Shown: positions 25,926 through 28,973 of the stretch, piece by piece
How the letters are laid out: each line of letters opens with the position of its first letter
Numbering within the stretch: the first letter of the stretch is position 1
Assembly: GCF_019823105.1 (NCBI RefSeq)
Contig: NZ_CP081960.1
Coordinates: 124,001 to 188,000, forward strand
DNA from: Halobaculum magnesiiphilum
Lineage (GTDB): Archaea; Halobacteriota; Halobacteria; Halobacteriales; Haloferacaceae
DNA length: 64,000 bases
Direction of reading: 5' to 3'
Notes under the pieces: generated by a model
What the model was told of the DNA's origin: nothing
What the model saw: only the letters and a program-made list of their open reading frames with translations
Database searches by the model: none
Program-made: the position numbers and the translations under genes

Positions 25926-26018
25926 ATGTGGCGTGTCACCCAGGTCACGACCCGTCGTCGGCCGACACCGGCCCCACGTACCGGCGTTGAGCGCGCGCTC
26001 CAGCGGGGTGGGCAGTGA
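25926..26018 (+). CDS. 30-codon leaderless upstream ORF coupled to the winged-helix gene
   Basis: Begins MWRVTQVTTRRRPT, is Arg-rich, and ends with TGA that overlaps the GTG start of the next gene (GTGA). Its final codons include GGGGTGGG, a possible ribosome-binding site for that gene. The layout matches the 18-codon ORF before the DUF1616 gene: TAAC-type element, ATG 33 nt on, overlap with the main start. Confidence 0.45.
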   Translation: MWRVTQVTTRRRPTPAPRTGVERALQRGGQ

Positions 26019-26386
26019 CCCGTTCGACGGCGTCCGATCCGGCGACCGGCATCGAGACGCCGGTGGTCCACGCGTCGCCCGCGGAGACGGCCCGGCTGTT
26101 CGACGCACTCGACAGCGAGGCGTGCCGCACGGTGGTCCGGGCGCTGGAGGATGGCCCGCTGACCGCGAAGGAGCTTCAGGCGGCCGGAGACATCCCGCTC
26201 TCGACGGTGTACCGCTGCGTGAACGAACTGGTCGACACCCCGCTCGTGGAGGAAACGACTCGCGTCAGCGAGGGCGGCCACCACGCCAGCGAGTACTCGC
26301 GCCCAGTCGAAACGCTGGTCGTCAGCTTCGGCGCGGAGCCGACGATGCACGCCGTCGACGCGCCCGTTCTCAAGCTGACCCTCTGA
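26015..26386 (+). CDS. ArsR-like winged-helix transcriptional regulator
   Basis: A 123-residue protein starting at GTG. The winged helix spans residues ~28-95: LFDALDSEACRTVVRALEDG, TAKELQAAGDIPLSTVYRCV (helix-turn-helix) and LVEETTRVSEGGHHASEY (wing). A ~25-residue C-terminal strand region follows, with no metal-binding cysteines. It resembles haloarchaeal ArsR-family proteins used as local regulators. It is translationally coupled to the 30-codon ORF before it and convergent with the J-domain/ferredoxin gene. Confidence 0.7.
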   Translation: MTRSTASDPATGIETPVVHASPAETARLFDALDSEACRTVVRALEDGPLTAKELQAAGDIPLSTVYRCVNELVDTPLVEETTRVSEGGHHASEYSRPVETLVVSFGAEPTMHAVDAPVLKLTL

Positions 26387-26408: not shown

Positions 26409-27155
26409 TCAGTCGTCGGCACGCGCGCGCTCGAACCGGTCGGCCGGCAGGCGCAGGTCTTCGAGCCCGGGCAGGTGCTTGACGTTGTAGACGACGCGAA
26501 GCGTCTCGGAAACCGGCCGGCCGATACACGAGAGCCGGAACCCGCGGTCGACCAGATCGTCGGTGAGCACGTTGTCGACGGTGCTGTCGAGTTCGCCCTC
26601 CACCACCGCGACGGCGCAGTTCGCGCATGCGCCGCCGCGACAGGCGAACGGCCACGCGAACCCGCGCTGTTCGGCCGCCTCGAGGAGGGTCTCGCCCGGC
26701 TCCGCGAGGAACATTCCGTAGTCGTCCGCATCGAGGTCGGCGTCCGACGCCGTCTCGAAGAGGTCGTCGTCGTCGATCTCCCACCCGTGGTCGGCGACGA
26801 CCTCGTAGTTCAGATACTCGACGCGGGTGGTCGTCGCCTCGGACCCGTTTGCGGTGCCGTTTCCGTGCTCCCCGCCGGTTCGATCGGCCGGGTCGGTGCT
26901 CGTGTCGGCGCCCGACTCCGCAACCCCCGGTTCCTTCCGAGGCGGTGCCGCCCCGTTACTCTCGGGGACGGCCTCGGTGGCCGGGACCGCAGTTCCCGAG
27001 ATCGCGGCCTCGTACGCCTCGCGGACGCGCTGGAACTCCTCCATCGAGCCGCCCCGATCCGGGTGCGCCTCCTTCACCCGCCGTCGGTAGGCGCGTTCGA
27101 TCTCCGTATCGTCGGCGTCGGCGTCGAGCCCCAGTACGTCGTACGGAGAATCCAC
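26409..27155 (-). CDS. J-domain/[2Fe-2S] ferredoxin fusion protein
   Basis: A 248-residue protein. Residues 2-~55 are a DnaJ-type J-domain with the HPD tripeptide (VKEAHPDRGGS). A ~60-residue acidic linker follows. The C-terminal ~130 residues match halophilic plant-type ferredoxin: WEIDDDDLFETASDADLDA is the acidic halophilic insertion, and CRGGACANC plus SCIG supply the four cluster cysteines. The GTG start at 27155 follows a TTATAT box by 29 nt; upstream in-frame ATGs would add unrelated sequence. It may deliver an electron carrier to Hsp70 (DnaK) clients or assist Fe-S assembly; this role is inference. Confidence 0.8.
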   Translation of the reverse strand: MDSPYDVLGLDADADDTEIERAYRRRVKEAHPDRGGSMEEFQRVREAYEAAISGTAVPATEAVPESNGAAPPRKEPGVAESGADTSTDPADRTGGEHGNGTANGSEATTTRVEYLNYEVVADHGWEIDDDDLFETASDADLDADDYGMFLAEPGETLLEAAEQRGFAWPFACRGGACANCAVAVVEGELDSTVDNVLTDDLVDRGFRLSCIGRPVSETLRVVYNVKHLPGLEDLRLPADRFERARADD

Positions 27156-27178
27156 GACGCACGGTAGGGACGAGGGAC

Positions 27179-27343: not shown

Positions 27344-27526
27344 TCAGTCGTCGAACACCGTGATTCCGTTGTCGTTCGATCGCTCGCGGATCAGCCGGCC
27401 CGACCAGTCGTGGTTCGACAGGTCCCCGACGTCGAGTCCCGCGTGGACCCGCTCGACGCGCTCGGGGCCAACCTTCCGGGCTCGGGCTTCCACTCGCGGG
27501 AGCGCACGACCGTCTCGAACAGCCAC
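27344..27526 (-). CDS. 60-residue conserved-looking small protein
   Basis: Starts at GTG and reads through LPRVEARARKVGPERVERVH and LDVGDLSNHDWSGRLIRERS to NDNGITVFDD. Codon composition and the mix of charged residues are protein-like, and no opposing gene explains the frame. It lies 170 nt downstream of the Tat-exported TIM-barrel gene, on the same strand. No domain recognised. Confidence 0.45.
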   Translation of the reverse strand: MAVRDGRALPRVEARARKVGPERVERVHAGLDVGDLSNHDWSGRLIRERSNDNGITVFDD

Positions 27527-27696: not shown

Positions 27697-28908
27697 CTAC
27701 TCGGGCGTCTCCGTCGGCGTTCCGGTCGGAGTGCCGTCGGGGGTCCCAGTCGGAGTTCCGTCGGGTGTTCCTGTCTCGGTACCGTTCGGCGTCCCGGTCT
27801 CAGTACCGTTCGGCGGTTCGGTTCCCGGCGTCTCGGTCCCCTCGGGCGTCTCCTCCGGGGTGCCGGTCGGCTCCTCCGTTCCGTCGTCGTCTCCGTCGTC
27901 CGTGTCGGCGCCCGCATCGCCGAGCACCGAGAGCGCGCCCTCGTAGGTATGCGTGTACGCGCTCTCCATCCCGCGCCGGCGGTACTCCTCCGAGAGGATC
28001 TCGTTGCCCCACGGGCCGGCGAATCCGGCCTCCCGGCAGGCGTCGACGAATCCCTGCACGTCGAAGTCGCCGTAGCCGGGGACCCGGCGCATGTTGACGG
28101 TGTTCTCGACGAAGCCGCCGCGGCCGGTGTCGGTGAACCCGTCGTCGATCTCGACGGCGGTGATGTCCTCGGGCGACAGCGCCGCCACGTCGTCGTAGTC
28201 GATCGTCTCGATGTTCGTGATGTGCCAGGTGTCGAGGAACAGGCCGCCGTTCTCCGGACCGCTCACCCATTCGAGCGCCTGATCGAGGGTCTGCGAATTC
28301 GGATCCGGCGGCAGGATCTCCATCCCGACGAGCGTGTCGACTGCGGCCGCCTCTTCGCAGAACGTCGCGAACCGGTCGGCGAGCGCGTCCGTCTCCACCG
28401 GGTAGCCGTTGATGTTCCCGATCTTGATGTGGCGCGCATCCATCGCCTCGGCGGCATCGAGAAGGAGCTGTCGAGTCTCCTCCTCGGCTTGCCGTCGCGG
28501 ATCGTCCTCCGGGAGGAGCCAGTTCACGAGGAACTCCAACTCGATCGTGTCGATCCCGGCGTCGCGTATCGTCTGCCCGATCCCTTCGAGCGTCCGACCC
28601 TCCGCCTCGACCATGTGCTGGATGTCGGCGTGGTAGAGGCCGATCCCCGTGAAGCCGACCTCCGCGAGCATCTCCACGCGGTTCTCCAGGTCCCAGGGAC
28701 TCCACTCGCGTCCCGTGAACGGTTTCACGTCGCCCGCGTGTGCCCAGTAGGACGCGAGCACGTCGACGTCCGCCTGTTGTTGCTGCTGTCGTACTTCTCG
28801 CGCTCGGTCGATGTCCTCCGCCAGCGCCTCGTCCATCCCCGCGGCGCCTGCGCCGAGCGCGACTGTTCCACCCGTCGCCTTGAGTACGTCTCGTCGTTTC
28901 GGTGGCAT
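27697..28908 (-). CDS. Tat-exported sugar-isomerase-like TIM-barrel protein
   Basis: A 403-residue protein. The start at 28908 opens a twin-arginine signal (KRRDVLKATGGTVALGAGAA). The central ~290 residues form a xylose-isomerase/endonuclease IV-like TIM barrel (AP_endonuc_2), with MLAEVGFTGIGLYHADIQH, IKIGNINGYPVE, LVGMEILPPDP, LFLDTWHITNI and AVEIDDGFTD supplying likely metal-ligand His, Asp and Glu positions. The last ~60 residues are a Thr/Pro/Gly repeat (TGTPDG, TGTPNG) that looks like an extracellular spacer. Sugar epimerase or isomerase activity outside the cell is inferred. Confidence 0.75.
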   Translation of the reverse strand: MPPKRRDVLKATGGTVALGAGAAGMDEALAEDIDRAREVRQQQQQADVDVLASYWAHAGDVKPFTGREWSPWDLENRVEMLAEVGFTGIGLYHADIQHMVEAEGRTLEGIGQTIRDAGIDTIELEFLVNWLLPEDDPRRQAEEETRQLLLDAAEAMDARHIKIGNINGYPVETDALADRFATFCEEAAAVDTLVGMEILPPDPNSQTLDQALEWVSGPENGGLFLDTWHITNIETIDYDDVAALSPEDITAVEIDDGFTDTGRGGFVENTVNMRRVPGYGDFDVQGFVDACREAGFAGPWGNEILSEEYRRRGMESAYTHTYEGALSVLGDAGADTDDGDDDGTEEPTGTPEETPEGTETPGTEPPNGTETGTPNGTETGTPDGTPTGTPDGTPTGTPTETPE

Positions 28909-28952
28909 GGTGTCGTCACTCCGTGACCTCGTTCGGGTCGCATCGCGTCGCG

Positions 28953-28973
28953 TCACACACGATAGCTGTGTGA
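28953..28973. promoter_or_regulatory. inverted repeat upstream of the TIM-barrel gene
   Basis: TCACACA-N7-TGTGTGA, a perfect 7-bp inverted repeat, 45-65 nt upstream of the ATG at 28908 (minus). An imperfect GTGTGA/TTACAC repeat follows at about 28968-28985. This is a plausible operator in the divergent interval to the dehydrogenase operon. Confidence 0.4.

Follow-up and report, generated by a model that had tools for sequence, protein, structure and literature searches.

A haloarchaeal gene joining a J-domain to a [2Fe-2S] ferredoxin: a candidate class C co-chaperone

Introduction

What might a protein do that begins as a J-protein and ends as a ferredoxin? The question is raised by one gene in a 64,000-nucleotide stretch of the Halobaculum magnesiiphilum genome (the window, from whose first letter all positions below are counted). 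DnaJ–ferredoxin fusions (DnaJ-Fer) with a CXXCXXC motif are known from Viridiplantae (Chlamydomonas CDJ3/4/5) and Thaumarchaeota, and the passages available of the 2012 paper describing them place DnaJ-Fer in no other lineage, the association being specific to plants and Thaumarchaeota (PMC3564930). According to the same passages, two of the Chlamydomonas proteins interact with chloroplast Hsp70B, and their function is still to be elucidated. Among titles and abstract openings in the open-access literature we found no haloarchaeal J-ferredoxin and no experiments on one. The available portions of two papers on haloarchaeal ferredoxins (PMC8305020, PMC4500146) do not mention DnaJ, and no J-ferredoxin fusion is described in those of two others (PMC7601130, PMC6267482).

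Results

Domain layout and predicted structure

The gene, here J-Fer, encodes a 248-residue protein in which a flexible linker joins an HPD-bearing J-domain to a ferredoxin (Fer) domain of the haloarchaeal plant-type [2Fe-2S] kind, complete with its four cysteines (Table 1). The preliminary description of this DNA had placed a J-domain with HPD and a complete four-cysteine ferredoxin in a single chain; our analysis confirms this, and the reading frame, strand and coordinates were exact. Pfam DnaJ matched residues 4–49 (E 5.5e-12) and Pfam Fer2 residues 151–214 (E 7.7e-14), both above the curated cut-offs, and the NCBIfam profile 'ferredoxin Fer' (NF041393) scored 175.2 bits against a cut-off of 150. 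The cluster cysteines are spaced C-x4-C-x2-C-x29-C, the Pfam Fer2 type. Besides these domains the Pfam scan gave just a sub-threshold RPT match, with no DnaJ zinc-finger or DnaJ C-terminal domain, and at E up to 1 it found no HscB C-terminal domain. With an HPD J-domain and neither zinc-finger nor DnaJ C-terminal domain, J-Fer is by sequence a class C J-protein. The linker had also been called acidic. It is present, but with 9 acidic residues in 57 it is better described as disordered than as strongly acidic; the highly acidic segment DDDDLFETASDADLD is part of the Fer domain and is common to stand-alone haloarchaeal Fer.

Table 1. Features of the J-Fer locus (positions in the window; residues of the 248-residue protein)
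Feature	Position	Strand	Remarks
J-Fer gene	26409..27155	-	GTG start at 27155, stop 26409-26411; 248 aa
J-domain, residues 1-55	26991..27155	-	Pfam DnaJ; pLDDT 93-96 over residues 1-50
HPD motif, residues 31-33	27057..27065	-	kept in 81/81 loci
Low-complexity flexible linker, residues 56-109	26829..26990	-	block pLDDT 45-68; mean pairwise identity 0.146 (33 J-Fer)
Fer domain, haloarchaeal plant-type [2Fe-2S], residues 110-223, including acidic insertion	26487..26828	-	NF041393, Foldseek, profile
Cluster loop CRGGACANC (C172, C177, C180)	26616..26642	-	G174 in 33/33 J-Fer
Fourth cluster cysteine C210	26526..26528	-	81/81 loci
C-terminal tail, residues 224-248, consensus NVKHLPxLxELRLPPxPFExA	26412..26486	-	unlike stand-alone Fer tail
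TATA-like box TTATA, -29 to -25 from start codon	27180..27184	-	70/77 loci
TA dinucleotide at -11/-10, promoter-proximal element	27165..27166	-	A/T in 88% and 82% of 77 loci

An AF2 model built with 43 homologues gave a confident J-domain block (pLDDT 93–96), low confidence over residues 56–109 and values mostly above 90 for the Fer domain. The best Foldseek match was 1doi (E 5e-15, TM by target 0.92, 52% identity), with 1e10 also among the best; these are the ferredoxins of Haloarcula and Halobacterium. In a profile search against structures 1e0z came first (E 9.3e-53), 1doi was also found, and the J part matched 2och (3.5e-11). The best 50 Foldseek matches were all ferredoxins, with no J-domain among the matches listed; the predicted J fold rests on sequence profiles and the AF2 model itself.

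Conservation of both domains

We compared 81 homologous loci, the best 30 from one set and 51 from a second (78 once near-copies are removed). The preliminary description held that loss of the HPD or of cluster cysteines in close homologues would speak against it; we looked for such losses and found none, HPD and C-x4-C-x2-C...C both being kept in all 81 loci. Positions A22, Y23, R24, H31, P32, D33 and G36 are invariant in 43 of 43 diverse aligned sequences, which also share the cluster loop. Both domains are thus under selection in one chain. Among 33 J-Fer sequences mean pairwise identity is 0.60 for the J-domain, 0.15 for the linker, 0.62 for the Fer domain and 0.62 for the tail (stand-alone Fer 0.85, n=22); with the domains near 60% and the linker at 15%, it is the J and Fer domains that are constrained and not the tether.

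Start codon and promoter

In 77 of the 81 loci a start codon aligns with the GTG at 27155, which supports this start. At least four of the five positions from -29 to -25 are A or T in 70 of these 77 loci, against 2 of 77 for control positions -44 to -40, the loci being related by descent and not independent draws. Position by position, A/T reaches 94–99% at -28 to -26 and 82–88% at -11/-10, in loci with a mean A+T of 34%. This spacing, which we take to fit an archaeal TATA box for a leaderless transcript, indicates that J-Fer has a promoter of its own, positioned for leaderless transcription.

Distribution

The preliminary description proposed a survey of the fusion across Halobacteria. A profile search (E 1e-60) found it in 101 of the 145 genomes of the class, spread over 37 of 58 genera and with Halobacterium salinarum (L047) among the carriers; the weakest accepted match had E 6.1e-65, and the best match seen without a J-domain, a fusion of an HTH-like module to Fer (HTH-Fer), had 3.0e-59. 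In 83 of the 101 genomes the alignment began at model position 1–3, and we read the other 18, in which the best profile stretch starts behind the model start, one by one. All 18 proved to be J plus Fer, so that HPD loss in these genomes was rejected; the HPD is in the open frame of Fer in 17 of them and in another frame in one (L123). In the L123 homologue the HPD and the remainder thus lie in different frames, an apparent frameshift that is either real or from draft assembly.

By our reading of the tables for the 145 genomes, J-Fer is present in 53/53 genomes of the host's own family, in 5/36 of a second family (f4) and in 43/56 of the rest. Class-wide universality is rejected, 44 of the 145 genomes being without J-Fer at E 1e-60, and J-Fer is therefore dispensable for Fe-S and for ferredoxin metabolism in the class. 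In a single-protein search of 391 genomes, three of the same genus (G183, G222, G385) and one of the same family (G195) matched with E-values no better than 3e-44 to 6e-45; these lie in the range of stand-alone Fer, and the four genomes probably have no J-Fer. In a phylum sample of 294 genomes (E 1e-30) all 52 matches, stand-alone Fer included, fell in the host's own order; among the 20 listed of the 242 genomes without a match, one belonged to that order. Bacterial fusions were considered and rejected: nine non-haloarchaeal loci matched the J-domain only, and in 0/9 did one frame join an HPD to a 2Fe-2S motif.

One could suppose that J-Fer is a chance read-through, a mis-assembly of two adjacent genes or a degenerate gene, and G+C-rich open frames around the gene and the frameshifted L123 homologue are all that points that way. 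The recurrence of the fusion in 101 of 145 class genomes, with a single promoter upstream of the J-domain, refutes read-through and mis-assembly, and we regard this whole explanation as exceedingly improbable.

Genome context and annotation

The host genome has one HSP70 and a full-length three-domain DnaJ nearby. It also encodes two other proteins that carry a J-domain at the C-terminus, and a stand-alone Fer among six Fer2 matches in all. With that stand-alone Fer available, bulk electron transfer need not depend on the fusion.

Flanking frames of 51 loci were compared all against all, and families present in at least six loci were listed; none is a class-wide conserved neighbour of J-Fer. 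Families with a constant place came from six Haloarcula loci, two wide families (36 and 12 loci) were shadow frames overlapping the J-Fer gene itself, and one found in 11 loci occupied scattered places on both strands.

Near the gene in the window lie three other frames. A small HTH protein gene (26015–26386, + strand), convergent with J-Fer, also stands beside it in five of seven other loci of the genus (L008–L011 and L013, that of L009 being partial; not in L012 or L014), and weak matches (37–38%) lie near J-Fer in L053 and L054. A 60-codon frame (27344–27526, - strand) has the look of a halophilic protein, and its matches in the fetched loci are copies of this region only. The third, at 27697–28956 (- strand), encodes a xylose-isomerase-like TIM barrel whose C-terminus is repetitive and G-T-P-rich; it may have a Tat signal, the match to which is below cut-off.

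All ten plasmid records with a homologue, five of them Halobaculum, annotate J-Fer as 'ferredoxin Fer'. The J-domain is missing from these names because the NCBIfam profile of that name passes its cut-off on J-Fer.

Origin of the ferredoxin domain

We built a tree from 60 Fer domains, of which 33 came from J-Fer, 22 from stand-alone Fer, 3 from Usp-Fer and 2 from HTH-Fer. In this tree, whose bootstrap had not settled, all J-Fer lie on one side of a 96/89 branch with HTH-Fer beside them, and a 100/99 branch parts J-Fer and HTH-Fer from stand-alone Fer and Usp-Fer. On these sequences the Fer domain of J-Fer has a single origin, in one clade apart from stand-alone Fer; J-Fer passes the NF041393 score but falls outside the clade of single-domain proteins. 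Fixed differences accompany the split: G174 in 33/33 J-Fer against A in 22/22 stand-alone Fer and, in the tail, P229 (33/33) against D (22/22) and L236 (33/33) against I (22/22). Further differences are S209 (T in stand-alone Fer) and a one-residue gap after 202. The changed tail and the faster evolution of this Fer domain (62% against 85% identity) could mean that the partner surface of the ferredoxin is no longer used.

HTH-Fer, an HTH-like module followed by Fer (L149 385–1185, - strand; L151; L156–L158), occurs in 8 of 145 class genomes from two genera; nine were above threshold, the G121 match being its J-Fer. The HTH matches in L149 are below the Pfam curated cut-offs. A Usp-Usp-Fer architecture was found by Pfam in L152 (492–1664, - strand) and by reading in L153 and L154.

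These fusions bear on a second explanation, in which the Fer domain is a sensor of redox or Fe-S status that gates the J-domain, oxidation, reduction or loss of the cluster altering DnaK activation when iron is limiting or the cell is under oxidative stress. In those eight genomes this Fer lineage is joined to an HTH module, and another Fer branch is joined to two Usp domains; attachment to modules for transcription, stress and chaperone action is the behaviour of a sensor, and G174 in the cluster loop, in place of alanine, could tune potential or stability. Yet no allosteric path is visible through a linker that is unconserved and predicted to be disordered, the HTH matches of L149 are sub-threshold, and Usp-Fer branches on the stand-alone side, so that the fusions are not one family. 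We hold sensing by J-Fer to be possible but doubtful. A broader version, which we consider rather unlikely, is that haloarchaea made a diverged [2Fe-2S] ferredoxin branch into a portable redox/Fe-S status sensor, with J-Fer switching DnaK, the sister HTH-Fer acting on transcription and an independent Usp-Fer branch linked to universal stress proteins. If it were true, J-Fer would be a case of chaperone activity set by an electron-carrier cluster, independent of the CXXCXXC-type DnaJ-Fer of plants and Thaumarchaeota.

Discussion

We favour a different role for J-Fer, that of a class C co-chaperone bringing DnaK to ferredoxin partners or Fe-S clients, and would place it midway between doubt and acceptance. 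HPD and the Y-R of helix II form what we take to be the DnaK-contact signature, and this makes recruiting DnaK the most probable task of the J part; a conserved HPD alone does not prove that J-Fer stimulates DnaK. In such a mechanism the Fer domain, on its flexible tether of about 50 residues, would be the aiming part and would dock on ferredoxin-dependent oxidoreductases or Fe-S proteins. The J-domain, working through helix II and HPD, would then stimulate ATP hydrolysis by the single DnaK, and DnaK might act on the docked partner in assembly, repair or disassembly.

Conservation of HPD and cysteines, the invariant J-domain positions, the drifting linker, two confidently modelled domains around it, a genome holding a single HSP70, a full DnaJ and a separate Fer, and presence in 101 of 145 genomes all count for co-chaperone action, as does the interaction of Chlamydomonas DnaJ-Fer with Hsp70B reported in the available part of PMC3564930. 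Flanking families in at least six of the 51 loci offer no conserved neighbour that names a client; this counts against the co-chaperone role, as do the 44 of 145 genomes that manage without J-Fer and the fast-evolving Fer part with its altered tail. The [2Fe-2S] cluster is likely to be loaded, judging from four ligand cysteines in 81/81 loci; the J-domain presumably binds DnaK, and the clients would be Fer partners or Fe-S proteins. That J-Fer sends DnaK to redox or Fe-S clients, as the preliminary description suggested, is plausible.

J-Fer might instead be mainly a specialised electron carrier, its J-like domain only docking a membrane or enzyme partner without DnaK. In favour of this, J-Fer keeps the four cysteines and most positions of the Fer core, and its own leaderless-type promoter is housekeeping-like. 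This would leave the strict HPD and the Y-R of helix II unexplained in a genome that already has a canonical Fer, and we think it quite unlikely.

With the co-chaperone role as our working interpretation, J-Fer is a widely kept link between Hsp70 and ferredoxin, unlabelled in the ten plasmid records seen. For [2Fe-2S] ferredoxins it contradicts the printed restriction of J-ferredoxin fusions to Thaumarchaeota and green plants, and it adds an independent case in which the role of such fusions can be studied, in haloarchaea that are amenable to genetics.

Comparison with known systems

Stand-alone haloarchaeal Fer/Fdx (NF041393; 1doi, 1e0z/1e10) has the fold, the acidic insertion and the four cysteines in common with J-Fer. 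It is a single domain with the loop CRAGACANC, whereas J-Fer adds a J-domain and linker, has CRGGAC for CRAGAC and another tail, and forms a separate clade. HTH-Fer resembles J-Fer in its sister Fer domain, CRGGAC loop and LRLP-like tail, and differs in that an N-terminal HTH-like module replaces the J-domain. Usp-Usp-Fer likewise carries a haloarchaeal Fer as the C-terminal domain of a fusion, but has two Usp domains, a Fer that branches with stand-alone Fer, and the loops CRGGGC, CRVGGC and CRAGGC.

HscB and Jac1 are class C J-proteins with a specialised client, and their partner module is an IscU binder. Like J-Fer they have a J-domain but lack the zinc-finger and the C-terminal substrate domains of DnaJ; J-Fer differs in having no Pfam-detectable HscB C-terminal domain and in its partner module, which is a ferredoxin instead of an IscU binder.

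The plant and thaumarchaeal DnaJ-Fer proteins, as far as the available text of PMC3564930 describes them, share with J-Fer an N-terminal J-domain and a C-terminal ferredoxin, and the thaumarchaeal inter-domain region of 54–92 residues is like the J-Fer linker. Their Fer is of the CXXCXXC type (PMC3564930), whereas that of J-Fer is C-x4-C-x2-C-x29-C, a Fer2 domain with the haloarchaeal acidic insertion.
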